Positions 1,289 through 45,242 of a stretch of DNA of 64,000 nucleotides are shown here, piece by piece. The stretch is from Ilex aquifolium (lineage: Eukaryota > Streptophyta > Magnoliopsida > Aquifoliales > Aquifoliaceae), in the NCBI GenBank assembly GCA_951799425.1, contig OX637401.1, positions 31,483,780 to 31,547,779 on the forward strand, in the 5' to 3' direction. Each line of letters begins with the position of its first letter. The first letter of the stretch is position 1. The position numbers and the translations under genes are program-made. The notes below the pieces were generated by a model, which ran no database searches, was not told the origin of the DNA, and saw only the letters and a list, made by a program, of their open reading frames with translations.

Positions 1289-1624
1289 GTAGGTTTTGAT
1301 AGAAACAAAGTGTAGAAACTCTTAGGAAGCAACAGAACGTTGAGTGATCTGAAGTTATAATTTATTAAGCTTCAAAGCACTTATTTATACAGTTAGCTTA
1401 AAACAGAAAAACATAAAAAGTGTAGTTTAATATGTTACCTGCAGATACCTCCTAAAAAATAGCAACAAACCTGCTACCTATAGATACTTCCTAAAGAATA
1501 GAAACAAACCAACAAATACTTCCTAAGGAATAGGTAAATCTTCCATATGACTAACTTATTTGACTACTTCCACTTCAATCTACTCAGCTCCATGTCAGCA
1601 GCTCCTAGGACATGTCATTCAACA
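1289..1624 (-). mobile_element. Copia 5' LTR (336 bp)
   Basis: On the plus strand the segment begins TGTAGG and ends TTCAACA, giving the TG...CA ends expected of an LTR, and it lies four bases from the Met-tRNA-type primer site. Its right edge coincides with the point where similarity to the 23.9 kb copy of the FIP1 exon starts, so the copia element inserted into, or truncated, that duplicate. The matching 3' LTR is not in the window. Confidence 0.55.
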
Positions 1625-3368
1625 GAACAGCACTTTTTATCTCGTTTTGCTATCCACAATAGACAGCCTAGTGCTAATCCATTCAACCTGTTCTGAGTCA
1701 AACCTGAAACCACAATTCTGTTGTTACTACTTCGGCTGAGGTATGAGATGCACCTGCATTCTCTCGGACCTAACTTCCACCCCATCTCCTCTTCCGCATT
1801 GGCCTTTGTTGTTGCTTATTCTGAGTTGTTTCCACAACTGAATCAACCGGAGGGTCGACAGCCCAGTCTGTGTCATTTCTTAGAGTAATGGGCTCCTTAA
1901 ACCGTTCTCTTCGTTTTTCCATCTTTGCTATCACCTCAAGAATCCGAGGGTTATTTTTCTCAACAACCACATATCCATTTTTTTGCTTTTTCGCCATTTA
2001 ACTTCTTCACATCACTGATTTGTCACACATCAGCAGATGCACATATCTTTTTCACTGGGTTCACATTTATTGCTTCGGTTATTATCTGACCTTCCTCAAT
2101 AATCCAAAGCTTCAGTGTGCTGCGTTACAGGGAACTTGTCAAGCCATTCGTTGCCATTCTGGTTGGTTTCAACTTTGGAGTCGTCCAATTGAGCTACTTT
2201 CTCCACATGAGATTCGTTGAAACCCTTGCAAGTTTTCTGCTTGACATCAATTATCCGGTCCATGTTTTCATGTCTATCATTGTACATTACACTTCCAGCT
2301 TTGAAGCATCTTCCAGAGGACTGCAGGGTGTATTGCCATGAGAAAATTTCACACAATTGAATGTTCTACAGGCTAAGAAAGACATTTAAGCTTACTGAGA
2401 AGAAATGGATAAGCTTAAGCAAGATGAAAAAGCTGTTACTGCAAGCATTTGGCAAAGAATTATAAATACACAACCAAAAATGCCGTTTAAAAGAATGGGT
2501 TAGAACCCAGTATTAACAAAACCTGAAGACAAACAGGGTTAGTCAACCATTCAAAAATAAGTAAGGTGAAACTCGAATTATCTTCGACTAAGCAGGTCAT
2601 CCAAACTACAACATGTATGACATAGAGAAACATATAATACCCGGAATTAAAAATATTAACATCTAGTGTTCCGTGATCTTGGTACTTGCAAGTACCTAAA
2701 TTTACTTCATGTAAAGAGAGAAAAAAAAAAAGAAGAGTACTAATAAGATGATCAGAACCAACTGTAAATATAAAGGACAAGCAACTGATGCTTCATTGCA
2801 TCCTTGCATTCATTTGATCAAGTAGCACAAAATGATACCTGGACCAACACTCGGCCACACAATGGCCACGTAGGCATGACCAAGTTACGATTGTGAAGCT
2901 CAAACATGAGATGTCAAATTGCTTAACCTTTAGATCATATCGAAGGCTAAGTCAAATTCCTTTCCCTCTAGACATTTTATCGAAGGCCAAAGAAAGATAG
3001 AGTATTGGCCCCGTCGCCAAGATAAATAATCAACAAGTTTTCCTATACCATCCTATGGATGGAATGGATAATCACAAGTCCAATTACTGATGCAGGAACA
3101 ACACCTCCTTTGGATGAGATGGATAATAATTCTACCTGAATAAAACTGGTTTATCTCCATCCGATCCCTGAGCTGACAAACAATAAACAGGAAGCTGAGA
3201 CCACAAATAACAGATGACCACCTCTATAGTCGATCTCAAACACGACAAAAATAGTTCTTCAATCTTTATGTTCAAACAATTACATTAATTGCACTTCATG
3301 TGATGACCAGCAATCAACTCAAATCCCTGACCTGTGACTTTCCAATCGACATTCAAAGCCAGCAATGT
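1625..3368 (-). pseudogene. Duplicated, decayed terminal exon and intron flank of the FIP1-like gene
   Basis: This stretch is nearly identical to 23937-25608, which holds the last exon of the FIP1-like gene and about 1 kb of its upstream intron. The exon part is 2320-1770. An extra base near 2100 turns the frame after HTEALD into a stop, and the frame is recovered further on. The C-terminal signature KMEKRRERFKEPI and the RKRRWGGS ending are still readable. No other FIP1 exons accompany it and no promoter is seen, so this is a partial segmental duplicate. Similarity stops at 'agcaatgt' (3361-3368) on the right and at the copia LTR on the left. Confidence 0.82.
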
Positions 3369-3694: not shown

Positions 3695-3792
3695 ATGATC
3701 AAAATTGGTCCAGCAGGGTACCTTGGTACAAGTAGAACTGAAATCGTTCAGATCTTTTTATATCACATGGGGAGGGACAAATCAATACCATC
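3695..3792 (+). pseudogene. Jacalin-related lectin pseudo-exon, 5' half
   Basis: From the ATG at 3695 the frame reads MIKIGPAGYLG and then EIVQIF, the first beta-strands of a jacalin domain. It aligns with the better preserved exon at 19864. Against that copy there is a net 2-base deletion between about 3760 and 3785, so the frame no longer joins to the continuing SIQFQY-type segment. The exon is then cut at 3792 by the 13.5 kb LTR element and resumes at 17302. Both the frameshift and the insertion argue that this copy is dead. Confidence 0.75.
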
Positions 3793-4508
3793 TGATGGTG
3801 TACACCTACTCGAATGAGCTATGGAACTGAATTATTTGGTATGAATGATCTGTATGGTGATTAATACGGTATCTGAGTTGCAAGTCTCGTGTCTAATAAT
3901 GCAGGTGAATGCTTTGGGGAACAAGGAAAGGGATGATAACACGACAGAATTATAGTGGTTCACCGGCCTGAGCTCAGCTAGTCCACTCTGTAATGGAGTC
4001 TCTAGCTCCTCTCTCTCTCTTATTGATGGTGTTCAATGTATTACAGTCCAATCGCCAGGGTATTAGGGTTTCTAGTTGTTCTTTTTTTTTAATAGAGGCT
4101 TGCCCTCCTTTTTATAGCCTCATGCTTACCTCTAATTCGAGATCACCTCCTATAATGGAGGGATCTTGCCCTATCTTCATCTATAATTTCGGAGTTACCT
4201 AAAATTCATATGGCCGGCTTTTATGGTTTCCACCTCGAGATCTTTGCCTTCTTCCATGGGATTCTCCTTAGTTTTAGGAGAGGACCCCGGTTGGTTACGG
4301 GTTTTATGCCTTGGATCCAGCTTAATCTCTATCACGAAGGTATCTGTGGCCCTCTTGCCCTTTCTTGTTCGTGTCTCTTGAGGGGAGGTCTGAGCTCAGC
4401 TGGCTGAGCTCAGACTGTGGCTTAAATGAGCTCTACTTCCCTCCTCTGAGCTCCTGAGCTGAGCTTACCTCCAGAGCTCATCGTTGGGTTTTATTTCAGG
4501 TATCATCA
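3793..4508 (-). repeat. 3' LTR of the 13.5 kb element
   Basis: 716 bp, beginning TGATGGTGTA and ending TATCATCA, so the ends form a short inverted repeat TGATG...CATCA. It holds a reverse-strand TATA box (cctttttatag, 4107-4117). It pairs with 16585-17301; scattered substitutions and a small length change in a T-run separate the two. Confidence 0.95.
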
Positions 4509-4521
4509 GTTGCCCCCCAGC
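4509..4521 (-). promoter_or_regulatory. Polypurine tract of the 13.5 kb element
   Basis: Read in reverse, a G-rich run (GCTGGGGGGCAAC) lies directly against the 3' LTR, where plus-strand DNA priming is expected. The same run lies at the same place in the small element at 44646-48563. Confidence 0.7.
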
Positions 4522-4681
4522 TCTTGTCTAAGTTAGCTTAGGCAAGGGCTGAACTGTTTCTCGATCAGAACTAGATCTGCATGTGATCTCCTTTGGCTTT
4601 CCACGTGACTGAAGATTTTTGACGGTTTGTAGTGATCATGACTCTCCTCGATTCCCACGCATGTCTCAGCCCACGTCCTTC

Positions 4682-5169
4682 AAGCTTTAAATACCCAAAA
4701 CGGCTACCTGAACCGTTTCTTTACACTATTCATCTTCTCCTCTGTTTCTCTGTACTTCTTGCCTCTGCGAATTCTTGGGTCCTAGTCTAGAAGCTCTTTG
4801 ATTCTTTGCCCTAAATCGGCCTTTGTTCGATTCGAGGACTCGCAGTGCTTCCCCTCTTTGATTTGGCCTCGGATTGTTGTTCGTCGCTTCTCCCCAACTA
4901 GGTACGCTTTCCCTATCCTCTTTTCGGCTTTTCCAACTCTGGACCCTTCGAGTTTTAGGTGGTTGCTGCATTTTTGGACCCATAGGTTCTTTTTCTTCTG
5001 GTCCCGTGATCGTTGCCTGTCTCCCCTTCCTCATTTTGTGGACTGGAGTTCCATCGTGCACATACTCGCTGTTGGGAGTTACTGTGCTGACCCTAGGGTT
5101 ATTAGGGAAAGTTTAGTTAGTGTTCTCCCTCTTTATCGCTCTTTCAATCTCCCTTTTTCTTGTCCAATT
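4682..5169 (+). promoter_or_regulatory. Putative promoter and leader of antisense gene A
   Basis: A TATA-like tttaaatac at about 4686 is followed by a pyrimidine-rich leader and then by the ATG at 5170. The open frame extends upstream to 4798, but the segment before 5170 has no resemblance to the protein family, so I take 5170 as the start. Inferred from position only. Confidence 0.4.
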
Positions 5170-7819
5170 ATGTCTGCTTCTTCTGGTGCTACTCGTTCCT
5201 CTGTTTCCCTACTAGGGGACCGGTCTGAGGACACCGACTTAGGGGATGTTGGTGATGAAATTGATAACTTTCCTGGTGTGGAGGCTGTAGAAGCCGAGGT
5301 CTGCACCGAGGAACCTCCCTCTACCTTATCTCCCACGCCCCCCAAACCTGACAAAGGTAAGGGCAAGGTGAGTGGAGTTGGGGTTGAAGAAAAAGAATCA
5401 TACCTGGGGGCCGCCTTTAGGCATGCCGAGTCTGTGGGCCATAGTAGAGAGGTCCCTGGGTTAATGAGAGCTTATAAAGCTCGATACGGCTTTCCTCCTG
5501 GGGTTGAGCCCTGGTGCCCTGATAATTCCATTTACTATGTAGAACAAGTGCGCCAGAGGGTCTGTTTCTTCCTAGCTGCCTTTGAGAATGGTCTTCGCTT
5601 TCCTTTGCCTCCCTTCATTAAGACTGTTCTTCAACACTTTAATGTTTGCCCTTCCCAGATTTCTCCCAACTTCTATGGCGTCATGGTTAGTCTCCTAGTC
5701 ATCTTTAAGAAACATAAACTCGGGGTTCCTAGCATTTCTTTGCTAATGGAGCTCTTCAACGTCAAACTGACCTCCGCCGAAGGTTTTCTGTATATTTCCA
5801 AGCGAACTAAAGCTAGGAAAATTATCACTGACCTCCCCTCTTCTCACAAGGCGTGGAAAAAACATTTCTTTTATATTGGGGGTACCAATTAGGAGTACAA
5901 CCCTGCAGATAAGACAGATACTCTTGGTATCCCTAGAGCTTGGACTATCCCAGAAAACTTGCGTGAGTCTTTACTCGAGCTGACTGAGCTCTGATTTAGA
6001 ACTTATGGGCCTCTTGCCTTTCTCTTACTTGCATACTTTTTCTTTCAGGTGGTCGCCCTGAGCTCAGCTCTGAAGATAAGAAGGTGCTAGTGAAGTTAGG
6101 AAAAATCAAGCCAGAGAGGTACGCTGATCTTATTAATTCTCAGAATCTGGTGAAGCTAGGTCTGAGTCCTCCTTCGGCGACCCTAGCCATTCCATTATCC
6201 ATTGTAGAAGCTGAAGAAGGTAATACCATTATCACTTTCTTTCTTCTTCTCTTTCGTTTCCTCTTACAGCTCTTGATTCCAACCAGACCTTCCAGGCCCT
6301 TCTACCATGAAGTCCACTCCTGAAGAACTTAAGGCCAAGGTGGATGAGCTGATGAAAGGTGGTAGATCCAGCAAGCGCAAGGCCCGGGTCAGTTCTGGGA
6401 GTGGTCCGAACACCCGGGCTAAAATCCCCAGATTGGAGGTGCCTTCACCCCCCTCTGCTACTGAAGAACTGGTTCCCAACAAGGCATCGCCTTCCTCAAC
6501 CGGCACTCCTCAAATTGCAGTCACTTCTTCCTCTCCAGTGGCCCATCCTGGGTTGGTGCCTGCTCAAGAGGGAGGTCAGGCTTCCCCTTCCTCCTCTGAG
6601 GTCGAGAGAGCTTTGGGATTGATTCCCGACCTCCAGCCCAGAGATTTCACATTCAGTGCCTCTGGGAAGATGGTTGAGAAAGAGAGAAAATCTGAGGAAG
6701 AAGATGAGGATTCTTTCTTTGACAACATGGATCTTGCTGCGGGAGCTCTTTCTTCTATTTTTTCTGAGTCTAATGTCCTGAAGGCTGCTTCTATGCCCCT
6801 TGAGGAATCCATCTCTTCAGCTCTTCAGGGAGCAGCTGCTGTAAGTGCTAGCACTTTTTCCTCTTTACTTATTTTTGTTTCGTGGTCTGACGTAATTTGC
6901 TGCACTTTCTTTATATTCTCAGGCTGCCCTCCATGCGAAAGGTCTGCTGCACCGAGTTCGGTCTCAAGAGAGCTCTTTTAAGGTTCTGAAGACGTATAAG
7001 GTCAGGGTTTCTGAATTGTCCCTTGAGAATGAAGACCTCAGGGCTCAGAACGAAGACCTCAGGGCTCAGGTGGAGAGCCTCAAAGAGCAAACGGTGAAAC
7101 AAGCCTCCGACCTCAAACATACATTAACCGTCAAGGTCAGAGCTGAGGAAGGGGAAAATAAAGCTCGAGATGAGCTAAGACTAGTTAAGGAGGACCTGCA
7201 GCTTAAGGTTGAGGCGTGGTCCAAGGCTAGCCAAGAGGCTTTTAACGCCAAGAAAGAGCTTAGCCTGGCCAATCAAGATTATCTCGCCCTCAACGAGGCA
7301 AATGGCAAGCTCTGCGAGGAGCTCGAGGAGCAGAAAGATTTGGTCAAACAGAGGGATAAAGAGATTGCCGAGCTTAGAGATGAGGCCACCACTTTGTGGG
7401 CTACTGGATGGCTTGCCTTTAGGCGCAAGACTATCAAAGCTTTTCCAGACCTTGACTTCAACTTCCCTATCCCCACTGAGGAAGAAATGGAAGAATCTAG
7501 CTCTGATAATGAGGAAGATGTCTCGGTCCCACCATCAGCTACCTTGAGTCAAGACATACCTGCCCCTGGGACCTCTGGAGCTCTTATCGTGCTTCCTGAG
7601 CCTCCAACTGCGACTCCTGAGCTCCCTGCTGTAGATCCTGTTGTTCCTGTTTCCACACCGTTTTCAGCTGACTTGGTGACTGAGGCCCTTGCTCAAGACC
7701 CGGACTCAACGGGAGCAGGGACCCAAGGCCTTTCTGGAAGCTCTTCCCTTGCTTCTGCTGTTGAGGGCTCATCTACTGAGCTGCTAGATCCTTCAATTAC
7801 TCCCCCTCCAGAAACTTAG
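5170..7819 (+). pseudogene. Antisense gene A: gypsy-associated accessory protein (PF04195-like), broken
   Basis: Runs opposite to gag-pol. Exon 1 (5170-5962) has an acidic, Ser/Pro-rich start, then the conserved block LPPFIKTVLQHFNVCPSQIS and a second block ending KKHFFYIGG. These resemble the plant 'putative gypsy type transposon' family (PF04195, from memory). A stop TAG at 5890-5892 interrupts this block; 23 further sensible codons follow to a GT donor at 5963. Exon 2 is 6049-6219. A possible 50-bp intron (6220-6269) leads to a segment whose frame no longer matches the one starting at ATG 6307. Exon 3 ends at 6840 (donor GTAAGT). Exon 4 (6923-7819) encodes a long coiled coil (about 7020-7390) and an acidic Pro/Ser tail. 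It is therefore a spliced gene with one nonsense codon and one probable frameshift. Its function is unknown. It is paralogous to gene B at 8875. Confidence 0.7.
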
Positions 7820-8022
7820 GACTTTTTAGTTGTAATTTCTTTGTAAAATTTTTTTGAGATGCAGCTTTGACTTGGGCTAGGACTTTGTGTTACTTTGCAA
7901 TCTTCATCTTGTTTTTCCTTTGCTGGTTTAGCACATGTATATCTTTGAATTTCGATTCCGAACTGCTCACTTACTTGTTTTGCTTTATATGTGTTTTGCT
8001 TTGTATACTCCCCTTGCCTCTT

Positions 8023-8061
8023 TTTTGCTTTGAGGGGTGCTGTGCACTTCTTAAAGCAAAA
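8023..8061 (+). other. 16-bp stem-loop after antisense gene A
   Basis: Arms TTTTGCTTTGAGGGGT (8023-8038) and ACTTCTTAAAGCAAAA (8046-8061) enclose a 7-base loop. The three departures from perfect complementarity are all G opposite T, that is G-U pairs if the plus strand is the RNA; in the other strand they would be A-C mismatches. Related stems occur at 8411-8450 and 45375-45410. Confidence 0.6.
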
Positions 8062-8196
8062 TTACTAGATTTGAAGAGTATAGAAGACTTGGTGTTGTGC
8101 TCAATGGATTCTCCTGAGCTATTGAGCTTGGTAGTTGGTATCCTAGGGATCCCTTCCCTTTTCTTCTCCATTCTGAGCCACACAGCTTGATATTGT

Positions 8197-8373
8197 GAAC
8201 TTAGGAGTTCTTACTGAGCTACGTAGCCCCTTTCGTGAACTTAAAAGTTCTTGCTGAGCTTCGGGGCTCTTCTGCCTGAACTTAAAAATTCTTTCTGAGC
8301 TCCATGGCTCCTTTGTGTGAACTTAAAAGTTCTTTCTGAGCTTCATGGCTCTTTTGTGTGAACTTAAAAGTTC
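8197..8373 (+). repeat. Hairpin array 1 (alternating two-hairpin units, about 43 bp)
   Basis: Five GAACT-tnaa-AGTTC-type hairpins alternate with four GAGCT-nnnn-GGCTC hairpins. The arms are mostly kept, while the four loop bases of the second type vary (acgt, tcgg, ccat, tcat). The array lies about 380 bp after the stop of antisense gene A. The same two hairpin types make up the 40-bp repeats at 45585-46504. Confidence 0.75.
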
Positions 8374-8410
8374 TTTCTGTGTTTTCTTTTTCTTGTACTT
8401 CCCCTACCCC

Positions 8411-8450
8411 CCTTGCTTTGAGAAGTGCTTCAGTCCTTCTTCAAGCAAGG
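8411..8450 (+). other. 15-bp stem-loop
   Basis: Arms CCTTGCTTTGAGAAG and CTTCTTCAAGCAAGG enclose a 10-base loop. There is one mismatch and one G-U pair in the plus-strand sense. It is the second member of the TTGCTT...AAGCAA stem family. Confidence 0.6.
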
Positions 8451-8874
8451 CTATGGACTTCACGAGCTGCTAAGTTCTTTTGATGAACCGAGGAACCCAT
8501 CAGGAACTCTTCCATTCTGATGTGAGCAGGGCTCTTGGAATTGCAAGTCTCAAAGACTTGCTATACAGGTGCTCTGTTTTTGACTGGGCTGAGCTCAAAC
8601 ATGAAGGATATTCTTCTTGGGTGGGGTCAGAATTCCCTTCGGTTGTCTTGAGTGCAATAGGAGGGGTAGTCTTGTGCTGATTTCCTTTTCCCGCCTTTTT
8701 CCCAACCGTTTTCCATAACCGCAACCACCTTTATTTATTAAGAAACCAAAAAGACAACCGATTCCTTTTCTCGTGTCTTTTGGTTTCTTAAAAACTCCCA
8801 ACTTTCTCTAAGTTTCCTTTCATCTGTTTTCTTGATTCTTCGTGGTTACTCTCTGTTTTTGATCTTGATCTCTA
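8451..8874 (+). promoter_or_regulatory. Spacer and probable promoter of antisense gene B
   Basis: No domain-bearing frame is seen. An AT-rich tttatttatta at about 8730 and a pyrimidine-rich leader before the ATG at 8875 are consistent with a plant promoter. Weak, positional evidence. Confidence 0.35.
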
Positions 8875-9962
8875 ATGGCGGTCCCTAGTTCTTCTTTGTT
8901 CGAGGAGCGGACTTCCTTCGGAATCGAATGGAAGTGGCACTGTCGCTACCTATCTCCCTCTACCCTTGAGCCCTCTGATTTGAAAACCATCAAGAAACAG
9001 TTCCTTCTTGATCTTGAGTTGCCTTTGCGAGTCCCTACTCCAGATGAGCCCTGCAACTACCTTCCTCGAGGGGAAGTCTGCTTCTTTGAAGGTGCCATGG
9101 ACATGGGACTTCGCCTTCCCATTCATCCGGCCATAGGGCGAGTTCTTGCCTACTATGGCCTGTGTCCTTCTCGCCTTTCTCCACGAGGATGGGCCGCTAT
9201 GGTAAGCTTTTTCTTGTTCTGCCGCCTACATGCCATTGGCAGGTTCCCCTTTGTCTCTGAGTTTCTATACTTCTTCGAGATCGAAGAAGATGATGCCCCC
9301 TGCTTCAGCTTCTTCCGTTGGAGGAATTTCAAATTACGCCCTTTGATTCTAGATCTTCCCTCCAATCCTGAAGGGTGGTCTAAACGTTTCTTTTTTGCTT
9401 CTGGGGAGTCTTGGAGGTCCACTGAGGATCGTTGTCGTGAAGCTAGGATCCCACGGTCCTGGAAGAGCTTCTCTCGCACTGGTAGGTTCGAGCTGAGCTC
9501 TTCTGCATATTTCTTTTTTAAGATACATCCTTACTATGTTTTTGCTGTGCAGGTCCACCTGATCTGGATGTGCCAGAGATGGTGAATATCAACGAGTTGC
9601 TACTTGCGGAGTCTAGGACTTATTCTGAACTGATGACGAATGAGAACCTTTATTTGTTTGGGGCCCTGGCAACTGAGTATGAATTTTCCTCTGTTCCCTA
9701 CTCTTCCTGGACTTCTTTCTCTGATTCTGAGGAGGTAGGGGATGCTGACGAGGCGGGAGATACCGGCACAAGTTCAAAGAAGCGTAAGAGGGATGGTTCC
9801 TCTTCCCCTGACTCTCTGTCCACCATTTTCCTTACCCCAATGGGTCAGAAGCTTCTTGACGCACTTTACAAGGCTGAGCAAAAAAGGGATGAGCTGAAGA
9901 AGGAGAATGCTTGCCTGAAAGAAGAAGTTGCTGAGCTGAGGTCTCAGCTTAAAAAGGATTAG
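8875..9962 (+). CDS. Antisense gene B: gypsy-associated accessory protein (PF04195-like), intact
   Basis: Two exons, 8875-9481 and 9553-9962, joined across a 71-bp GT-AG intron (GTAGG...TGCAG), give an uninterrupted protein of about 338 aa. Residues about 80-190 contain LRLPIHPAIGRVLAYYGLCP, then WAAMVSFFLFCRLH and WSKRFFFASG, matching the layout of gene A and of the PF04195-type family (family name from memory). The second exon has an acidic stretch, a basic cluster KKRKR (possible nuclear signal) and a C-terminal coiled coil (AEQKRDELKKENACLKEE). It lies in the Tat element on the strand opposite to gag-pol and ends shortly before a hairpin array. The intact frame and clean intron contrast with the stop-ridden gag-pol. 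The role is unknown; related antisense frames occur in other Tat-type elements. Confidence 0.75.
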
Positions 9963-10184
9963 GACCTCTATCCCCTTGTATTTCCTTTCTTTTCTTGAAC
10001 GATGCCAAATTATGAATCTCTTTATACTTTTCTGAACATTTATATTCTAGGATTTTCTGAATACCAGGTCTTTTGCTTTTGAATATGCATGCCCATATAA
10101 GAGCTGAGGGGCTTATCTCTTGTGATTTAAGGAGCTCGTTCCGAATTCTGTAAACTTGTTTCAGCATATTCTTCGTGTTTAGAA

Positions 10185-10325
10185 CACGAACGTGGATGAA
10201 AAACAGAAGATCATGCTTGCACTGACCTTAGTCCCTGACTAGTTCCACAGGTCGGACCACGAACATTGATGGAAAACAGAAGATCATGTTTGCACTGACC
10301 TTAATTCCCAATTGATTTCGTAGGT
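10185..10325 (+). repeat. Imperfect ~75-bp direct duplication
   Basis: The block containing 'aaaacagaagatcatg' and 'ttgcactgacctta' occurs twice in succession with few differences. It lies between the stop of gene B and hairpin array 2. No function is apparent. Confidence 0.6.
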
Positions 10326-10482
10326 AATCTCCGCTGTACTAAACATATTGGGGTCTTCAAGTGCGTAGGCAGTGCACTAGGACTATTAGTCGTGAGGGAA
10401 TCTACTGTTGGTGTCTCCAAGAAGAGACCAGCTTTGAATCTTATGAGCTTAGAAGCTTGCATGGGTTGAGGAGCTCGTTTTG

Positions 10483-10940
10483 AACTTTATAAGCTGAGAA
10501 GTTTACCGCTCGTTTGTGAGCCGAATAGCCCATCTTGTGTTTTATAAGCTGAGAAGCTTATCGCTTGTTTATGAGCTGAAGAGCTCATCTTGAAGCTGAG
10601 AAGCTTATCGTTTGTTTATGAGCTGAAGAGCTCATCTTTGAATTTTATAAGCTTAGGAGCTTATCGTTTGTTCATGAGCTGAAGAGCTCATCTTGAATTT
10701 TATAAGCTTATGAGCTTATCGTTTGTTTATGAGCTGAAGAGCTCATCTTGAATTTTATAAGCTGAGAAGCTTATCGATTGTTCATGAGCTGAAGAGCTCA
10801 TCTTGAATTTTATAAGCTGAGAAGCTTATCGTTTGTTTATGAGCTGAAGAGCTCATCTTGCTTTTTATAAGCTTTGAAGCTTATCGTTTGTTTATGAGCT
10901 GAAGAGCTCATCTTGCTTTTTTATAAGCTTTGAAGCTTAT
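10483..10940 (+). repeat. Hairpin array 2 (~55-bp units, two hairpins each)
   Basis: Seven to eight units of about 55 bp. Each has ATAAGCT-nnnn-AGCTTAT and ATGAGCT-gaag-AGCTCAT, 7-bp perfect stems with 4-base loops. In the first hairpin the loop varies (gaga, tagg, tatg, ttga) while the arms stay the same. The first units are more degenerate. The array lies between the converging ends of antisense gene B (stop 9962) and pol (end 11048). Confidence 0.85.
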
Positions 10941-11047
10941 CGTTTGTTGTAGAGCTTGTTGCACATTCCTTTACTTTGGAAGTCATCTAAGGGTGAATAA
11001 AAGACTTGTTTATTCTTATTTAAAAATAGCTCTATTACAAGTAACAC

Positions 11048-14000
11048 TTACTGAAAAAACTTCTTAAGGTGCTCGGCATTCCAAGAGTGAGGTAGGACCT
11101 TCCCCTCCTCTGTTTGCAACTCGTAGTTCCCTGGTCTGATTACCATTGACACAATATAGGGTCCTTCCCAATTGGGTCCCAATTTTCCATGCGTGGGATC
11201 CTTTCTTGCAAGCAGAAGCCTCCTAAGTACCAAGTCTCCATCCTTGAAACTTATGTGCCTCACCTTCCTGTCATAGTATCTTGCCGTTTTCCTTTGGTAA
11301 ATTCAGACACGATGCAGAGCTTTGTCTCTCTTTTCATCCAAGAGATTGAGGTTTAATAGGAGAGATTCATCATTGAGCTCGGCATCTGCAAATTCCTTCC
11401 TTGGTGATTGGAGCCCTACCTCCACAGGGGCTACTGCCTCAGTTCCAAAGGCCAAAGCGAATGGGGTTTCCTGAGTTGCAGATCTGACGGTGGTCCTGTA
11501 GGCCCACAATACTTCAGGGATGTACTCCACCCACTTGCCTTTCAGGTTTTCTAGTTTGGTCTTCAAAGCTGTCTTTATGGTTCTGATTGTGACCTCTGCC
11601 TGCTCGTTGGATTGAGAATGTGCAGGAGCTGAGAAATAGTTCTTGATCCCGAGCTCAACACAAAAGCTTTTAAATTTTGAGTTATCAAACTGCTTTCCGT
11701 TGTCAGACACGACCGCTCTGGGAACCCCAAACCTACAAACTATCGATTTCCAAACGAAGTTTTGAACTTTTTGCTCAGTGATTGTTGCCAAAGGTTCGAC
11801 CTCTGCCCATTTGGTGAAGTAATCCACCCCTATGATGGCAAACTTGCATTGCCCCACACCGGTGGGAAGGGGTCCAAGAATGTCCAAACCCCACTGCTGA
11901 AAAGGCCATGGGCTTACCACCGAGGTTAGCAGCTCGGGAGGACAGTGGGAAACATTGGCATGCTCCTGGCAAGTCTTGCATTTTCTTACTAAATCGGTGG
12001 CATTTTTGAGCATGGTGGGCCAATAATACCCTTGTCTCAATACTTTTCCTGCCAAGGCCCGAGCACCTATGTGATTGCCACATATTCCTTCATGTACCTC
12101 TCTGAGTATATAGTTGGCATCTTCATCCCCCACGCACTTAAGGAGAGGCGTTGAGAATCCTCGTTTGTACAGTTTTCCTTGCATCAAGGAAAATCTGGCT
12201 GACCTGGTCCTCAGCTTGGATGCCTCCTTAGCATCGCTTGGCAAAGTCCCACTCTGCAGGTACCCCATGATGGGGTCCATCCAGCTCGGCTGAGCTTCAA
12301 TTGATAGCATGTCCTCTTCTTCGATACTTACCGAAGGCTATGGAAGGTGCTCCACTGGAATTAGCCTATCCAAATCTTCTTGCGAGGCAGTTGCTAACCT
12401 TGCCAACGCATCTACTCATGAATTCTCTGTTCTAGGCACGTGTCTGACCTTAACCTGCACAAACTTTTTTATTAGCTCTCGTACCTTTTTGAGGTAAAGG
12501 ACCATCTTTTCGCCTCTCGCCTCGTACGACTCTTCTATCTGCTTAACCACCAGTTGAGAGTCACTGCAGATCTCCAGCTGCTCTGCTTCCATAGAATAAG
12601 CAAGATTGAGCCCAGCTATGACAGCCTCATATTCTGCCTCGTTATTTGAAGCTTTGAACCCAAATCTAAGGGCATACTCGACATCTATTCCCTCTGGGGA
12701 GGTCAAGATCATTCCTGCACCGCTTCCCTGAGCATTGGCGGCTCCATCTACTGAAAGCCTCCATATGGGGAGGTCTGGTATTAAATATGCGGTCTCCATA
12801 GGCGCTGATGCTGTGAACTCTGCGATGAAATCCGCCAAAATTTGCCCTTTGATGGCAGTTCTTGGCTTATATCTGATATCAAACTCACTGAGCTCTATGG
12901 CCCATTTAACCAACCTCCCTGAAGACTCTGGCTTATGTAGTACTTGTTTCAACGGCTGATCTGTTGGGACCTCGATAGTATGAGCCTGGAAATAAGGTCT
13001 AAGTCTACTAGCTGTTGTAACCAGAGCTAGAACAAGTTTTTCCATCTTTGGATATCTCTCCTCTGCCCCCCCCCTCAGAGCTCTGCTACAGTAATAGACT
13101 GGTTGCTGAGCTCTGTCTCGCTCCCTAACCAGCGCCGCGCTTGTTGAAAAATCTGAAACTGCTAGGTAGAGGGTGAGGACTTCCCCTTCTAAAGGGCTTA
13201 CCAAAACAGGAAGGGAGCTCATATAATTTTTCAGGGCTTTGAATGCTTCTTCGCACTTGGCATCCCACTGGAATGCCTTTTTTAAGATCTGAAAGAATGG
13301 CTGGCATTTATCACTTGATCTAGACACAAAACGGCTCAAGGCAGCTATCCTGCCTGTCAGGCGTTGTACCTCTCTTGTGTTGGATGGTGATTGCATTTCC
13401 ACCATCGCCCTAACCTTCTTTGGGTTTGCCTCAATCCCTCGGCTGCTAACTATAAAACCCAGAAATTTTCCTGCCGAGACCCCAAATGCGCACTTCGCAG
13501 GGTTGAGCTTCATTTTGTACTGCTTTAGGATCTGGAATGATTCGGTTAGGTGCTCGATGTGGAGCTCTGCTTTTAGTGACTTTACTAACATGTCATCAAT
13601 GTAAACCTTCATGGATGCGCCTATCTGTTTTTGGAATATCCTATTCACCAACCGCTGGTAAGTGGCTCCAGCATTTTTCAATCCAAAAGGCATGACCTGA
13701 TAACAATATGTTCCCTGTTCCGTCACAAATGAGGTCTTCTCTTGGTCGTTGGGGTCCATCCTGATCTGGTTATAACCTGAGAAAGCGTCCATGAAGCTAA
13801 GGAGCTCGTGCCCGGCAGTGGCGTCCACTATTAGGTCGATCCGAGATAAAGGAAAACTGTCATTGGGGCATGCCCGGTTGAGATCAGTAAAATCGATGCA
13901 CAGTCGCCATTTACCATTGGTTTTTTTGACTAAAACTACATTTGCCAACCAGATAGGGTAGTCAACTTCCCTGATGGCCTTGGCATGGAGGAGCTTGCTG

Positions 14001-15385
14001 ACCTCCTCATTAATTGCCCTTTGTCTTTCTGAGGCAAAACTCCTCCTCTTCTGTTTGACGGGCTTGCAAGTTGGGTTCACGCTTAGCCTATGGGTAATAA
14101 CTGAAGGGTCAATACCTTCCATATCCTCTTGCTTCCAAGCAAACACTCCTATATTCTCCTTCAGGAACTGGATGATGAGACCTTTTAGCTCAGCATTCAG
14201 TCTGGAACCCACATAAACGAGGTGTTCTGGGTTCTCATCAAGTTGAATTGGTTCCAGCTCTTCCGAGGGCATTGGTCTCGTTTCCAGCTCATCCCTCATG
14301 TCAAGTTCATCCAGTTGGATGTTCTCAACCTCTTTCTTTTTTACAGATGTCATGTAGCATTCTCTTGCTATACGCTGGTCTCCTCGGACCACTTCGACTC
14401 CATTTTCTGCAGGAAATTTAACTACCAAGTGATAGGCTGACGGGATTGCCTTCATAGAGTTAAGGGATGGTCTTCCAAGCAAGATGTTGTATGCAGAGGG
14501 TGCATCGACCACTAGGAATTTTACAGTCGTGGTGGTTTGGCAGGGTGGGTCCCCTAGGGTGAGCACGAGTTGGATCGAACCCAGGGGGAGCACCCTTTCC
14601 CCAGAGAATCCCAACAAGTGAGTGTTTACAGGTTCAAGTCTCTCCCTTCCTATATCCATCTTGTCGAACGCAGGTGCAAAAATGATATCTACCGAGCTCC
14701 CGTTATCGATTAGAACCCGATAAACGGTTCTATTAGCCACCACAGCTCGTACCACCAATGGATCATCATGAGGATACTGGCATCCCTCCAAATCAGCGTC
14801 TGAAAAAGTGATAGCTGTATCCAAGCGTGGTGCTTTGGACACAGCGTGCACTTCAAGAGCTTCTTTGGCTCTGATTCGTTGAAGGTGTGCTTTCCTGGCT
14901 GAGCTGGACTCCCCACCTCCTGCGAATCCTCCTGATATTACTCTAATCTCTCCTAGAGGCTGCTGATGTGGTGCAGGTGCTTGCGGCTGATGTGGTGGCG
15001 GTGGGAGAGCTCGGTTCTGGTTGTCATGAGCTACAAAACGGCGTAACTGACCTCGCTGAATCAAGAACTCGATTTCCTTTTTTAGTTGAATGCAGTCATC
15101 AGTGTGGTGACCATGATCTCTATGGTAATCGCAGTACTTGGTGGGGTCTCTCTTGGCCGGATCTGCCTTCATCTGAGGTGGCCATCTCAAGAACTTCTCG
15201 TTTTGGACCTCATACAGAACTTGCGACACAGCGGCAGTGAGTGGGGTGAATCGCTGAGGTCCGTATCTGGGCTGTAGTTCAGGCTGCATGGGGCCCAGGC
15301 GATCTCTGACATTTCCTCTTCTCTTGGGTGAGCGGTCTCTATCCCTCCTTGGGGACCTTTCTCGCCCTTTTTCCTTCCTGGGACT
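11048..15385 (-). pseudogene. pol region of Tat-type element: protease, RT, dual RNase H, integrase
   Basis: A single minus-strand frame continuous with gag but cut by stops at 12416-12418 (TGA), 12338-12340 (TAG) and just before 11303 (TGA). From the Met at 15289, in order: zinc-knuckle variant C-x2-H-x4-H-x4-C (residues 53-66); aspartic protease site IDNGSS; reverse transcriptase with YIDD (about 13592-13603); RNase H; and a second RNase H with SVDGAANAQG (about 12735-12765) and an SDSQLVV block. After the stops comes integrase with an HHCC-type finger and the D-D-E triad (GLDILG, SDNGKQF, NEQAEV), then a short C-terminal piece ending at 11048. The dual RNase H places it in the Tat group. 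Two of the stops fit C-to-T changes at CGA codons. No functional polymerase can be made from this copy. Confidence 0.92.
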
Positions 15386-16522
15386 TTAGTCCCTTCTCTT
15401 TTCTTCTTTTTCCTTCTTCTTTCGTGAGGATGTGCTCCCTATTTTGGAAAGGAGTGCCTCTTCACCATTTATATACTTCTCTGCCTTGGCTAACACCTCA
15501 GCCATACTTGCCTGAGGGTTCTTCGATATAGAGAACATTAGATCCTTTGATTGCACTCCCAACCCTGCAATAAAGGCTGTTATGGCAAATTTTTCGTCTG
15601 GAACGTCTACTTTTAGTGTCTCTGAGTTAAACCTTTGGACATAAGACCTCAGGTTTTCTTGGGGCCCCTGTTTCACATTCAGTAGGTGATAGCTCGGCTT
15701 CCTGTATATCCGGGCTCCTATAAAGTGAGATACGAAAGCTATGGAGAGCTCTTTGAAGGATGAAATCGAGGCTGGTGGGAGCCTGTGAAACCAGGCTAGG
15801 GCGGAGCCTTTCAATGTGATGGCAAAAGCTCTGCAACGCACAGGATACTGGTATCCATGCAGCTCCATCTGGTTCTTGTAAGTGTTGAGATGATCCACAG
15901 GATCTTTCGTTCCGTCAAAGACCTCTATTTGTGGCATCCTGAACTTTGGTGGGAGAGGAAAGTGTAGCACTCCAGTAGTGAATGGGGACTCGGTTTGTTG
16001 CACTAGGATATCCATTGTAACCGGAGTCTTGCTCTTTACAGCCTCCTTCATATGGCTGAGCTCTTGCTGGATGTCTTTGAAACGTTGCTCCCAGTGCTGC
16101 TCTCTCCTGTCTTGCGGATAAGGGAAAAAATCATCCATCTCACCCCCATCGTTCTGACTTTGCACTTCCTCATTGTGACCATTCCTAGGGGGTTGGTAAG
16201 GAACATGCCCCCTGGTCTGGCTGTTTTTCCCTCCTTCGTTGACCTCCCTAAGGGGATCCCAATGTCGTTGTTCCCTATGAGGGGGATTGTTCTGGCCTTC
16301 TTGGGCCGGTCGTGCCTCCTGTGGGCGCTGTATGAGCTTTGATAGCTCTGCATTTTCCCTTAGCAAGCGTTGGTTGACGAGGCGAAGAGCCTCCATCTCG
16401 TTATTAATGGGGGAATTAGCCTCTTGGATATTCCCGGGTTGTCTGCCGTTGGTAGCTTCTTGCTGGTCTTGCATTCGTGGTATGTTTGTTTGACTTCTGC
16501 TCATATTTCGTGTTGTTACCAT
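15386..16522 (-). CDS. gag polyprotein of the 13.5 kb element (378 aa before stop)
   Basis: Starts MVTTRNMSRSQTN, with a charged coiled-coil-like N-terminal part, then the retrotransposon gag (PF03732-type) core, including FDGTKDPVDHLNTYKNQM and ALAWFHRLP. It ends at TAA 15386-15388 inside an Arg/Ser-rich tail. The paralogous gag at 46673-47917 has an Arg codon at this place and reads on, so the TAA is probably a mutation and gag and pol were once one frame. Capsid function is expected for virus-like particle assembly. The start lies 40 bp inside the primer site. The product may still be made, but lacks the zinc knuckle. Confidence 0.88.
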   Translation of the reverse strand: MVTTRNMSRSQTNIPRMQDQQEATNGRQPGNIQEANSPINNEMEALRLVNQRLLRENAELSKLIQRPQEARPAQEGQNNPPHREQRHWDPLREVNEGGKNSQTRGHVPYQPPRNGHNEEVQSQNDGGEMDDFFPYPQDRREQHWEQRFKDIQQELSHMKEAVKSKTPVTMDILVQQTESPFTTGVLHFPLPPKFRMPQIEVFDGTKDPVDHLNTYKNQMELHGYQYPVRCRAFAITLKGSALAWFHRLPPASISSFKELSIAFVSHFIGARIYRKPSYHLLNVKQGPQENLRSYVQRFNSETLKVDVPDEKFAITAFIAGLGVQSKDLMFSISKNPQASMAEVLAKAEKYINGEEALLSKIGSTSSRKKKEKEEKRRD

Positions 16523-16561
16523 CAGTCACTAAAGGATCAGCTTATTTGTAAAAGGAACAGT

Positions 16562-16584
16562 CGTTCCCACAGACGTCGCCAAAC
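16562..16584 (-). promoter_or_regulatory. Primer-binding site of the 13.5 kb element
   Basis: In reverse this reads GTTTGGCGACGTCTGTGGG, directly against the 5' LTR. The small element has GTTTGGCGCCGTCTGTGGG, so this copy carries one change inside the site. The TTTGGCGCCGTCTGTGGGAA motif is common in this group; I could not verify which tRNA it matches. Confidence 0.75.
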
Positions 16585-17301
16585 TGATGGTGTACACCTA
16601 CTCGAATGAGCTATGGAACTGGATTATTTGGTATGAATGACCTGTATGGTGATTAATACGGTATCTGAGCTGCAAGGCTCGTGTCTAATAATGCAGGTGA
16701 ATGCTTTGGGGAACAAGGAAAGGGATGATAACACGACAGAATTATAATGGTTCACCGGCCTGAGCTCGGCTAGTCCACTCTGTAATGGAGTCTCTAGCTC
16801 CTCTCTCTCTCTTATTGATGGTGTTCAATGTATTACAGTCCAATCGCCAGGGTATTAGGGTTTCTAGTTGTTCTTTTTTTTCAAAAGGAGGCTTGCCCTC
16901 CTTTTTATAGCCTCATGCTTACCTCTAATTCGAGATCACCTCCTATAATGGAGGGATCTTGCCCTATCTTCATCTATAATTTCGGAGTTACCTAAAATTC
17001 ATATGGCCGGCTTTTATGGTTTCCACCTCGAGATCTTTGCCTTCTTCCATGGGATTCTCCTTAGTTTTAGGAGAGGACCCCGGTTGGTTACGGGTTTTAT
17101 GCCTTGGATCCAGCTTAATCCCTATCACGAAGGTATCTGTGACCCTCTTGCCCTTTCTTGTTCGTGTCTCTTGAGGGGAGGTCTGAGCTCAGCTGGCTGA
17201 GCTCAGACTGTGGCTTAAATGAGCTCTGCTTCCCTCCTCTGAGCTCCTGAGCTGAGCTTACCTCCAGAGCTCATCGTTGGGTTTTATTTCAGGTATCATC
17301 A
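16585..17301 (-). repeat. 5' LTR of the 13.5 kb element
   Basis: 717 bp, same ends as 3793-4508. In transcript orientation the TATA box CTATAAAAAG is at 16910-16901, followed by a leader into the primer site. It also contains a (CT)n run and several GAGCTC-rich palindromes (17180-17270). Confidence 0.95.
16901..16910 (-). promoter_or_regulatory. TATA box of the element's 5' LTR
   Basis: CTATAAAAAG on the minus strand. It drives gag-pol transcription toward lower coordinates; the start is expected about 30 bases further left. Confidence 0.6.
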
Positions 17302-17384
17302 CCATCCAATTCCAGTATGTTGAGGATGGAACTTTGGTACTGTCTGACAAATTTGGTGTTAAGGGTGGAATTACATTTGATGTG
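17302..17384 (+). pseudogene. Jacalin-related lectin pseudo-exon, 3' half
   Basis: After the target duplication CCATC the interrupted lectin exon resumes with QFQYVEDGTLVLSDKFG and ends TTTGATGTG before a GTGAGT donor, exactly as in the exon ending at 20058. Joined with 3695-3792 this is one jacalin exon, but with a 2-base deletion. No partner third exon follows before the next lectin gene. Confidence 0.75.
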
Positions 17385-18592: not shown

Positions 18593-19155
18593 TCTATATA
18601 ATAAAGTAGCTTACAATTTAAATCTCAAAAGATAAACAAAATGACTTTTGCTATTCGTGGTTGAGATCGCTTTAAATTTTACTTTAAAGTTAATCTAACG
18701 GTTAATATTAATATTCTAAATTTTATAGGAAAAATAGGCCCCTAAGGGTGTGTTTGGATTGATTTTTTAAAAGTACTTCTAGAAATTATTTCTCATAAGT
18801 ACTTTAAAAAAAAAATAGTATTTGAAACCGCCCTACCACTACCTCTACCACCCCTACCCCCACCACCACCACCGCTACCGCCACCACCACCACCACCGCC
18901 ACCACCACCGCCTCCGCCACCACCATCGCCGCCCTCGCCGCCACCACCACAGTCATTGCCACCCACCACAACCATCACCGTCTCCTACCACCACCACCAC
19001 TGCCGCCCACCACCTCTCACCCCCACTACAAATCGATGCTTAAATTCTTTTATATCTTATCTATGTTTGTGATTTGATTTTGGATATGAATACAAATATG
19101 TTTATTGTTTATCATTTTTTATTACACTGTGCCTTCAGACACATGCAATAACTAT
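18593..19155 (+). mobile_element. Helitron-like element copy A with CCA-rich core
   Basis: Begins TCTATATAATAAAGTAGCTT and ends near GCAATAACTATA. The core 18831-19024 is a (CCACCACCG)-like minisatellite. It abuts copy B head-to-tail. The TC start and the end shared with copy B (hairpin plus CTAG) fit a non-autonomous Helitron; there is no target duplication and no terminal inverted repeat. Confidence 0.45.
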
Positions 19156-19771
19156 ATACAATAAAGTAGCTTACAATTTAAATTTCAAAAGATAAACAAA
19201 ATGACTTTTGCTTTTCGCGGTTCAGATCGTTTTAAATTTTACTTTAAAGTTAATCTAACGGCTAATATTAACACCCTAAATTTAATAGGAAAAATAGGGC
19301 CATAAGAGTGTGTTTGGAGTGACTTTTTAAAAGTACTTCTAGAAATTATTTCTCATAAATACTTTAAAAAAAAATAGTGTTTCAAATCGCCCCACCACTA
19401 CCTCTACCACCACCACCGTCACCGCCACCACCACCACTACTGCCGTCGCCACCACCACTACCACCACCACCGTCGCCAGCGCCGTCACAACCACTGCCGC
19501 CGCCCCCACTGCCACCACCAACTCCACCACCACCGTCGCTGCCGCCGCCGCCACCACTACCATCGTCGCCACCACGGTCATTGCCACCCACCACAACTAT
19601 CATCGTCTCCTACCACTGCCGCCCACCACCTTTCACCCCACTACAAACCGATGGTTAAATTCATTTATCTCTTCTCTATGTTTGTGATTTGATTTTGGAT
19701 ATGAATACAAATATGTTTATTGTTTACTATTTTTTATTACTCTGTGCCTTCAGGTACAGGCAATAACTAGT
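19156..19771 (+). mobile_element. Helitron-like element copy B with CCA-rich core
   Basis: Same family as copy A, directly following it. The 3' end has a small stem TGCCT...AGGCA, then ATAA and CTAGT (19767-19771), the CTRR-T arrangement of Helitron ends. Core minisatellite 19380-19640. Open frames through the core (Pro- or Gly-rich) are by-products of the trinucleotide-like repeat and not genes. Confidence 0.5.
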
Positions 19772-19863
19772 ATATATATACATTGTCCTAGTGAGCTGCT
19801 GTGAGTAGTGTTTTCTGAATTTACTAAGTTCATGAATTTACGCTGAAAATTGATGCCACTAGG

Positions 19864-21286: not shown

Positions 21287-21388
21287 GGATTGTCCTATTT
21301 TCACTGCTGTACGTTGGTGTAAAACTTGGTAATGGTGGTATTACGAGTATATCTTTGGTACCAAAAGCTTAATAGACTTTATCCATGT

Positions 21389-23140: not shown

Positions 23141-24078
23141 GACTGGTCAACTAACAAAGAAAATGACTACAAGTTCACCATACACCTTACGTGGTTTCGA
23201 TATATGGTAACCTTGAGGCGCGGGGTATAATAAGTGTAAACTTCAAGGAGAGTTTTGAGTAAATAAATTACCCCATCAATAAGCCATCCCTCTCCTTTTG
23301 AGCACTTTGGGATTTACCTGTGACAATAAGCATGTATGCGTTTGCCATTCTCACTAGAAACATGAATGAAAAATTACATTAGCGGCAACAGATTTCATGA
23401 CTAACATTATCGTGGGTGGTAATTGTGTTGGGGATGGGGGATCAACAACCCACAAAGATTCAGTTCCAACATATAACAAACACAAGTCTCCTAGGTACCA
23501 TAATGATGCAAGATACAACTGTTAGTAAGAGGTCACTGCCACAAAATAAGACTAAAATAGCTACAGCATCAATCAAGCTTATATGTTCCCTGACAATACT
23601 AACAGCAAGAGAAAATTGTACTAAACAAATTTAGAAAATGAGGTACAACAGAAGCCCAACGCCCAACTAGCAGTCTCGATTATGACAGTAGCCCGTAAAA
23701 ACTGCCTCCTGAAATAAGAAGGCAAGCTAAGAACTTATTAAGTTATGATTTATAAAAGGATCAGAGTGGCCAGCCAAAACCTGTGGTGGGTAAAGGGAAA
23801 TTTATAAAATCCTTCTAACTTATAAACTTTCACCAAGAATATACTAGCACAGTTAACCTTATTCCAAGCAGAAGAAGAAATTAAAAAATGTTCAAATTCA
23901 ACTCTATCTTCAACATCCAGAAGAAATAATTTATCTGAACAGCACTTTTTATCTCGTTTTGCTATCCACAATAGACAGCCTAGTGCTAATCCATTCAACC
24001 TGTTCTGAGTCAAACCTGAAACCACAATTCCGTTACCACTTCGGCTGAGGTATGAGATGCACCTGCATTCTCTCGGAC
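23141..24078. other. Spacer and 3' flank of the FIP1-like gene
   Basis: No gene recognised. The part right of 23640 is downstream of the FIP1 stop codon and presumably contains its 3' UTR and poly(A) site. Similarity to the 1.6 kb duplicate begins at 23937. Confidence 0.4.
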
Positions 24079-45229: not shown

Positions 45230-45242
45230 GTTGCCCCCCAGC
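45230..45242 (-). promoter_or_regulatory. Polypurine tract of the gag-only element
   Basis: In reverse, GCTGGGGGGCAAC directly adjoining the 3' LTR, the same as in the large element. Confidence 0.7.

Follow-up and report, generated by a model that had tools for sequence, protein, structure and literature searches.

Two antisense, intron-containing TRP28 paralogues and arrays of palindromic dyads in a Retand-type retrotransposon of Ilex aquifolium

The host element and its parts

The 64,000-nucleotide stretch of Ilex aquifolium DNA analysed here (the window) contains, at 3793-17301, an LTR retrotransposon in which two genes, A and B, lie on the strand opposite to gag-pol, with a tandem array behind each of them. 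Its parts are as follows.

3793-17301, minus: Retand-type element (Tat, Ty3/gypsy), TRP28 pair between pol and 3′ LTR
3788-3792, partner 17302-17306: target-site duplication (TSD) CCATC, read on both sides
3793-4508, minus: 3′ LTR, 716 bp, U3 end at 4508
4509-5169, plus: PPT side of the 3′ LTR and the region upstream of gene A, with a TATA-like TTTAAATA (4686) and without TGAGCT
5170-7819, plus: gene A, strand opposite to gag-pol
5170-5962, plus: A exon 1, PF04195; in-frame stop at 5890-5892 in the window copy
5963-6048, plus: A intron 1, found by aligning 20 further copies
6049-6219, plus: A exon 2, from the copy alignment
about 6220-6286, plus: A intron 2, from the copy alignment; acceptor less certain
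6287-6840, plus: A exon 3, NLS-like SSKRKARV; start deduced from frame and alignment
6841-6922, plus: A intron 3
6923-7819, plus: A exon 4, coiled coil
8194-8379: array 1, 41-bp unit, 4.6 copies, behind A
8875-9481, plus: B exon 1, PF04195
9482-9552, plus: B intron, phase 1, position matching A intron 1
9553-9962, plus: B exon 2, SSKKRKRD and C-terminal coiled coil
10467-10956: array 2, 55-bp unit, 9.0 copies, behind B; alternating 18-bp dyads ATAAGCT-N4-AGCTTAT and ATGAGCT-N4-AGCTCAT
11303-12337, minus: pol, integrase part (PF00665, PF17921)
12416-15385, minus: pol, RT and RNase H part; PF13456 (profile match) as a further domain of RNase H type
15386-16525, minus: gag (PF03732)
16585-17301, minus: 5′ LTR, 717 bp, paired with the 716-bp 3′ LTR

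The two LTRs differ at 11 of 716 sites (K2P 0.0156). A hallmark of Retand elements is an additional RNase H of archaeal type, placed between RNase H and integrase (PMC6317226); their stretch from pol to the 3′ LTR holds antisense TRP28 genes and tandem arrays (PMC11963269; PMC6317226). The same features are found here. The RT ORF contains PF17917 at 738-835 and PF13456 at 879-988, with the integrase in the next ORF downstream, antisense TRP28 occurs twice, and two LTRs are accompanied by a short TSD. Judged by its position, PF13456 would correspond to the archaeal-type RNase H known from Tat elements. No protease model matched the pol of the element in the profile search, and a protease-like motif could be made out by eye only.

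Intron-containing paralogues under selection

A preliminary description had placed two spliced-type genes antisense within one LTR element, and its spans (5170-7819 and 8875-9962), their orientation and the introns at 6841-6922 and 9482-9552 proved exact. The paralogy that it proposed is borne out: exon 1 of A and B share 36% identity over 126 amino acids (E 4e-24, one single comparison), the profile–profile probability is 99.2, and in the PF04195 profile check that it had suggested (TRP28, Transposase_28; curated cut-off 26.2 bits) A scored 30.2 and B 40.8 bits. An intron of the same phase sits at the same position in both genes; each also has a basic NLS-like segment and the predicted C-terminal coiled coil that the preliminary description had named, and basic stretches and heptads are conserved. 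A search of PDB sequences gave a best E value of only 0.26 and no solved relative, and AlphaFold models built from the two window sequences alone had a useless mean pLDDT of 34.4 and were dropped.

The genes were then compared among copies in the same genome. Forty of 1,664 candidates were scored with a B probe, 39 of them besides the window, and 20 of the 39 were taken in listed order. All 20 carry the A–B pair; since they were found with B, that gene is present by design, and it is the finding of A that carries information. L016-L018, about 94 kb apart, are probably one insertion, so the 20 copies are partly non-independent. Eight more diverged TRP28 loci were hand-picked, non-randomly, for differing frame lengths from 150 scored PF04195 matches; B was no selection criterion, and the pair was present in five of the eight. 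As high-scoring PF04195 matches favour A-type genes, this set would overlook any element that has only B. The tandem pair, which had been called unusual, is thus so with respect to the published description of Retand but common within this genome.

Splice sites are conserved across the window and the 20 copies (21 rows). The B intron, 71-72 bases long, has GT...AG in 21 of 21 rows and in all five diverged loci with B. Splice sites of A intron 1 are intact in 20 of the 21 rows, the exception (L021) being a copy without the 5′ part of A, and those of A intron 3 in 19, with a donor AT in L019 and an acceptor AA in L024. No loss of an intron from A or B was seen in the window and the 20 copies, in keeping with the retention expected beforehand.

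The proteins of A and B are kept by selection. Using only pairs with dS above 0.05 (164 of 210 for B, 66 of 78 for A exon 1 and 69 of 78 for A exon 4), pooled dN/dS within the close family was 0.177 for B, 0.145 for A exon 1 and 0.263 for A exon 4, with a by-exon range of 0.138-0.263. A frame-shifted control on single exons of this family gave 0.64-2.31. The value for B lies well below 1; a value near 1, together with a lack of plus-strand transcripts, would have led the preliminary description to give up its reading. Across diverged families dN/dS was 0.144-0.246 for both genes. The A and B clades span the compared families.

Dyads in the arrays, half-sites in U3 and a gag-only relative

The arrays, earlier taken for hairpins, are best read as palindromic DNA dyads. 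The pattern ATRAGCT-N4-AGCTYAT occurs 20,731 times per strand genome-wide, versus 10 times for the pattern read backwards. Between the B stop codon and the row end, the 21 rows hold 379 dyads at three mismatches or fewer, 270 of them perfect and 11-35 per row, and neighbouring dyads lie 27 or 28 bases apart in 309 of 358 cases. Because these dyads were counted by their arms, the count is uninformative on arm versus spacer conservation, and tandem units that TRF had delimited independently of the dyad were used instead; in units from different copies the arms are kept and the bases between them vary. Dyad mismatches comprise 89 G.T and 78 A.C and so show no RNA-strand bias, which disfavours an RNA-hairpin reading, although the test has little power as neutral decay after insertion gives an equal outcome. 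A general hairpin count clearly exceeded shuffles (made by first-order Markov resampling, which keeps dinucleotide counts only approximately) only in the B-to-pol stretch, and was unclear for array 1 and the LTR-to-A stretch. Of the claim that each gene has its own array, the part concerning array 2 holds in 21 of 21 rows, whereas array 1 (at least two units) is present in only 16.

The array motif is constant across families in which exon 1 identity is 81-87% for B and 62-78% for A. Divergence of A down to 62% with no evident shift in the motif would speak, for this gene at least, against close co-evolution of the two. The dyad motif was not seen in the more deeply diverged L045, though there the TRP28 gene has no identified array next to it. 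We rejected L045 as a different palindrome paired with a different TRP28, its GGCGCC repeat mapping inside pol between the RT and second RNase H matches; clusters of GAACGTTC at L045:480-860 were set aside as lying outside the presumed L045 LTR.

Half-sites also cluster in the LTR. TGAGCT/AGCTCA is concentrated at about 4385-4490, with nine occurrences within the initial 140 bp of U3, a count reached by 0 of 2000 shuffles. Among eight family representatives, 0 of 2000 shuffles reached the U3 TGAGCT count in six; the exceptions, L043 and L041, both without B, were reached by 15 and 96 of 2000. The half-site is clustered at the U3 end in most LTRs examined, and in an alignment of U3 sequences that have otherwise diverged, few columns are conserved as well as those of the hexamer. 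By comparison, TGAGCT occurs zero times or once in the LTR-to-ATG leader, wherever that leader could be placed, and at most four times per kb in the window outside both elements. In four copies with A and B (L010, L011, L012 and L015), the covered portion of the LTR has 1, 3, 3 and 3 hexamers. A dyad with the 4-base spacing of the arrays was considered for U3 and rejected, as spacing 9 dominates (13 in nine U3s) and spacing 4 occurs once.

A second element in the window, a relative of the first, has gag, LTRs and long arrays of both types.

44646-48563, minus: young gag-only (TR-GAG-like) element, TSD CAAAA
44646-45229 and 47980-48563, minus: its LTRs, identical at 583 of 584 positions
45495-46508: array-1-type repeats, 40-bp unit, 25.3 copies, ATGAACT-N4-AGTTCAT-like dyads
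46484-46696: array-2-type repeats, 27-bp unit, 7.9 copies, ATGAGCT-N4-AGCTCAT dyads

A, B and pol all went unmatched within 44646-48563, and this combination of arrays without TRP28 genes was seen in one single copy. Like TR-GAG elements (PMC9784723), it consists of two LTRs flanking gag only, without pol; unlike the TR-GAG elements of the part of that account used here, most of its remaining interior is made of palindromic arrays of the type of its autonomous relative, with more units.

A possible control system and its alternatives

Gene structure, paralogy, selection, motif clusters and the young gag-only copy with its arrays are direct observations, and taken together the TRP28 pair and the arrays look like a built-in control system of the element. 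We see roughly even chances that A and B are accessory genes whose proteins act on the dyad sites, regulating the element or lifting its silencing. On this proposal they would be long-standing accessory genes of the Retand lineage, their duplication predating the compared families. Each would be transcribed from its own promoter-like region, antisense to gag-pol, and then spliced, yielding a protein, putatively nuclear, that combines TRP28, the basic NLS-like segment and a coiled coil for dimerisation. The dimers would most likely bind dyads built from the half-site AGCTYAT, candidate sites being the arrays behind A and B and the related half-sites at the U3 start. Bound TRP28 proteins might keep the element transcribable, by activation or anti-silencing, acting in trans, and may also serve gag-only relatives that have sites but lack the genes. 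Expression, nuclear location, DNA binding and the direction of the effect are what we infer. Points that weigh against the regulator view are that array 1 is absent from 5 of the 21 rows with A and B, that spacing in U3 is 9 and not 4, that hexamer counts are low in L010-L012 and L015, that L041 stands barely above shuffles, that A diverges while the array motif shows no evident change, and that the gag-only copy is one case.

The arrays could instead be 3′-end or boundary devices that stop antisense A and B transcripts before pol, so that no dsRNA forms, and be unrelated to the A and B proteins, whose job would differ. An array does lie behind the stop codon of each gene, and the long array is the one nearest pol: array 2 in the window and, in the B-less L041 and L043, array 1 with 9.8 and 9.5 units. 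We nevertheless regard this as unlikely, given the absence of strand bias in the dyad mismatches (the low-power test above), the same hexamer clusters in U3, where a terminator is unexpected, and the longer arrays of the gag-only copy, which has no antisense-gene match. A comparably low probability attaches to the idea that TRP28 proteins have other tasks, such as partnering Gag or bringing the pre-integration complex into the nucleus. Retand elements commonly have tandem repeats at this place, specific to the family and of variable number (PMC11963269), and dyad number varies here too, but the dyad arms kept in TRF units while spacer bases vary, and the conserved hexamer in the diverged U3 alignment, speak against it.

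Much less probable is a role for the antisense RNA without any protein, as dsRNA or siRNA control of gag-pol RNA, a possibility raised by Vicient and Casacuberta in 2020 (PMC7264820); frame-specific dN/dS far below 1 in both genes, together with conserved splice sites, argues strongly against a pure RNA role. Recent capture of a host gene, one of two guesses in the preliminary description, would fit the introns and promoter-like upstream DNA, as in host genes, but showed no positive sign here and appears highly improbable given 5,837 PF04195 candidates genome-wide with all 150 scored above the cut-off, a window-type LTR adjoining the TRP28 gene in seven of the eight opened loci and pol adjoining it in the eighth, clades of A and B that span the compared families, and the report of Vicient in 2025 of no TRP28 similarity outside transposable elements (PMC11963269). 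The other guess, that A and B regulate the element, is the best fit.

Antisense TRP28 ORFs and tandem repeats have already been published for Retand (PMC11963269; Neumann et al. 2019, PMC6317226), with no function assigned to the TRP28 genes or the arrays in PMC11963269 or in the part of PMC7264820 drawn on here. The present element differs from these accounts in its two tandem TRP28 paralogues, each with introns. The text of PMC11963269 mentions neither introns, paralogues nor two TRP28 genes, and its use of ORF Finder means that spliced genes would be split. In the portions of the cited Retand literature considered, neither spliced TRP28 paralogues nor the dyad repeat design is described. 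Retand-2 of Silene, with ORF3 and ORF4, likewise has more than one additional ORF (PMC11728184), ORF number being what is compared here. Gene23 of maize Grande is also an antisense extra gene with its own upstream promoter, and is nuclear and transcribed; unlike here one gene is described, and the sections of that paper used make no mention of a tandem paralogue or palindromic arrays (PMC7264820).

A bolder form of the proposed control system, tentative and rather doubtful in our estimate, is a two-protein, self-encoded anti-silencing or trans-activation system, in which antisense spliced TRP28 dimers would read an internal AGCTYAT operator array and U3 half-sites, and gag-only parasites would drop the enzyme genes while keeping and enlarging the operator; it would be an independent LTR-retrotransposon counterpart of VANC. 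VANC proteins are anti-silencing factors of VANDALs, which are DNA transposons. The likeness to the VANC/VANDAL system of Arabidopsis is in mode of working only, an element-encoded protein with short motifs tandemly accumulated in non-coding DNA (PMC5735166, PMC10398659). For VANC21, the sections consulted describe a 9-base motif in one orientation with binding shown, whereas the sites here are palindromic dyads and putative.

The locus joins the function of TRP28 and that of the arrays into one testable question, to which this analysis supplies spliced gene models, evidence of selection on the proteins beyond RNA alone and an 18-bp dyad with a spacer. The gag-only copy is a natural experiment that separates sites from genes. 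Surveys limited to unspliced ORFs may have missed such genes, and should A and B prove to read the dyads, plant retrotransposons would be seen to encode sequence-specific factors for their own expression or against their silencing.

Two spliced-type genes antisense to gag-pol

The Retand-type element has its pol domains in the order RT, RNase H, second RNase-H-type domain and integrase, spread over two ORFs, and its LTRs have diverged at 11 of 716 sites (K2P 0.0156). On the opposite strand, the interval from pol to the 3' LTR holds two genes, A and B; their exons were taken from an alignment of 21 rows, comprising the window and 20 further copies from the same genome found with a B probe.

Features in the window
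3793-17301, minus: Retand-type element, TSD CCATC
3793-4508, minus: 3' LTR
16585-17301, minus: 5' LTR
15386-16525, minus: gag
12416-15385, minus: pol, first ORF
11303-12337, minus: pol, second ORF
5170-7819, plus: gene A (exons 5170-5962, 6049-6219, 6287-6840, 6923-7819)
8875-9962, plus: gene B (exons 8875-9481, 9553-9962)
8194-8379: array 1, 41-bp units, behind A
10467-10956: array 2, 55-bp units, behind B
44646-48563: second, gag-only element, TSD CAAAA, ends similar to those of the main element

Both proteins match the TRP28 profile PF04195, the one named in the preliminary description, above its curated cut-off (A, 5e-7; B, 3e-10). The paralogy proposed there is supported by alignment of exon 1 of A with that of B (36% over 126 aa; profile probability 99.2). 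In a midpoint-rooted tree of exon-1 pieces from 15 genes, in which the single long row, L045, is unsure, the eight A genes form one clade (100/99) and the six B genes another (99/99), placing the duplication before the families compared. Intron 1 of A and the intron of B are both in phase 1 at matching positions, downstream of the TRP28 block. GT...AG borders are present in 21 of 21 rows for the B intron, 20 of 21 for A intron 1 and 19 of 21 for A intron 3, as well as in all five diverged loci having B (72-78 bases) and, for A introns 1 and 3, all seven having A. Among the introns that could be examined, loss was seen in no row, consistent with the earlier suggestion that element RNA carries them in reverse and cannot splice them. 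Intron borders and alignment together suggest that A and B are spliced-type genes.

Elsewhere in the window, direct repeats of about 1.7 kb at 1617-3332 and 23929-25572, 22.3 kb apart and with pieces 95-98% alike, have the appearance of LTRs from an outer element, which the Retand element would have entered by insertion. At 18746-22342, long repeats rich in CCACCA and including inverted copies give rise to ORFs in both directions; these frames, rich in proline and threonine, are probably spurious.

Selection on the pair and its spread

We estimated dN/dS by Nei-Gojobori counts over the 21 rows, pooling pairs with dS above 0.05 and, for A, omitting L021 and seven copies carrying a diverged form of the gene. 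For B, the preliminary description had singled out this ratio among copies as a check; it is 0.177 (164 of 210 pairs; exon 1 0.138, exon 2 0.263), not near 1. All of A gave 0.233 (69 of 78 pairs), with 0.145 for exon 1 (66 of 78) and 0.263 for exon 4 (69 of 78). Single exons in shifted frames, our control, gave 0.64-2.31. Near pairs outside the dS cut gave 0.39-0.93, as expected from post-insertion decay of copies. Across diverged families, with two of the pieces used containing a stop, the values were 0.144 and 0.170 for B exons 1 and 2 (15 pairs each), 0.175 for A exon 1 (28 pairs) and 0.246 for A exon 4 (21 pairs). Of the 21 rows, 11 have an uninterrupted B frame and, with the window's exon borders, which fit the diverged form poorly, 3 have an uninterrupted A frame. 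A stop at 5890-5892 breaks A in the window copy, some other copies of A being intact.

Of the 39 other places listed, 20 were fetched, and every one carried the tandem pair, L021 lacking the 5' part of A. A whole-genome PF04195 search returned 5,837 candidates, and all 150 that were scored passed the cut-off. Eight of these, chosen for looking different, were opened; five (L039, L040, L042, L044 and L046) carry A and B in tandem, with exon-1 identity to the window of 81-87% for B and 62-78% for A. At L041 and L043, A is present and no B match was found: L041 runs from A through array 1 (9.8 units) directly to the pol end, and L043 has 9.5 array-1 units and an interruption of about 2.4 kb in its pol-side sequence. 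Because the A genes of both are nested, in the tree, among those of two-gene elements, loss of B would be the simpler reading. Synonymous divergence in exon 1 between the window and L039 is 1.80 for A versus 0.49 for B, a strong difference within the same pair, so that the A/B region looks like a mosaic made by recombination.

The eighth locus, L045, belongs to a deeper TRP28-bearing family and has a single TRP28 gene. On its reverse complement, a GGCGCC-rich repeat (8441-8860) falls within pol, where it separates the RT match from that of the second RNase H. Palindromes of the GAACGTTC/TTCGAACG kind cluster in the flanking DNA (480-860), ahead of a TATA-like stretch; they may belong to another transposable element that has palindromic promoter sites of its own. 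Three near-identical copies in C6 (L016, L017 and L018), regularly spaced at about 94 kb, are probably one insertion copied inside a tandemly duplicated 94-kb segment.

Palindromic dyads in the arrays and a gag-only relative, half-sites in U3

Array 2 alternates the 18-bp palindromes ATAAGCT-N4-AGCTTAT and ATGAGCT-N4-AGCTCAT, each with a 4-base spacer. The 21 rows contain 379 such sites at three or fewer mismatches (270 perfect), successive sites being 27 or 28 apart in 309 of 358 cases, and the genome contains 20,731 exact matches to ATRAGCTN4AGCTYAT versus 10 for the reversed pattern. Upstream of array 2 is a 73-bp direct repeat (10182-10325); TRF reported similar repeats, in 2-2.5 copies, in L013, L021, L023, L026 and L040.

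Within the 140 bases that begin U3, the half-sites TGAGCT/AGCTCA also cluster, with 9 in the window, 5 in L039, 4 in L040, 2 in L041, 7 in L042, 3 in L043, 5 in L044 and 8 in L046. None of 2000 shuffles reached the count in the window or the five two-gene diverged loci. For the loci without B, the number of shuffles doing so was 96 (L041) and 15 (L043). The hexamers are among the best conserved columns in an alignment of eight U3 pieces, and the leader between the LTR and gene A contains 0 or 1. The cluster is weaker (1-3) in the close copies L010, L011, L012 and L015 and unreadable in L009, L013, L020 and L021. Spacing in U3 is dominated by 9 bases, unlike the 4-base spacer of the arrays, which counts against a simple story.

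The LTRs of the gag-only element are identical at 583 of 584 sites, its primer-binding stretch differs from that of the main element at 1 of 24 bases, and its gag frame is open over 406 codons; judged by its sequence, it is an element that moved recently. No match to A, B or pol was found within it. Much of the remaining interior consists of a 40-bp repeat (25.3 units) and a 27-bp repeat (7.9 units), holding dyads of the ATGAACT-N4-AGTTCAT and ATGAGCT-N4-AGCTCAT types.

Precedents and a proposed mechanism

Earlier papers describe the Retand lineage, its tandem arrays and its TRP28 ORFs in antisense orientation (PMC11963269, PMC6317226 and PMC7264820), and the conclusion of PMC7264820 calls for a search for spliced and antisense transcripts. 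ORF3 and ORF4 are named for Silene Retand-2 in PMC11728184; like the Ilex element, it thus has more than one additional ORF, giving two per element a precedent. In the open-access literature searched, we found no published description of the intron structure, of a TRP28 paralogue pair, of the shared dyad or half-site or of an array-keeping gag-only relative.

Vicient 2025 (PMC11963269) reported that just two of 63 clusters lacked TRP28 and that about half had tandem arrays, assigned DNA-binding to TRP28 by predictor and suggested a regulatory role. A basic KRKR-type stretch occurs in both the A and the B protein, as does a C-terminal part rich in heptads; these features persist across families and are consistent with nuclear dimers, for which a dyad DNA site would be suited. 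Going a step beyond Vicient 2025, we propose that TRP28 dimers may target the array dyads and U3 half-sites. VANC (PMC5735166 and PMC10398659) serves here purely as an analogy. A young element with enlarged arrays and without enzyme or TRP28 genes, here one copy, is what would be expected if the dyads were cis-acting and full elements supplied a factor in trans.
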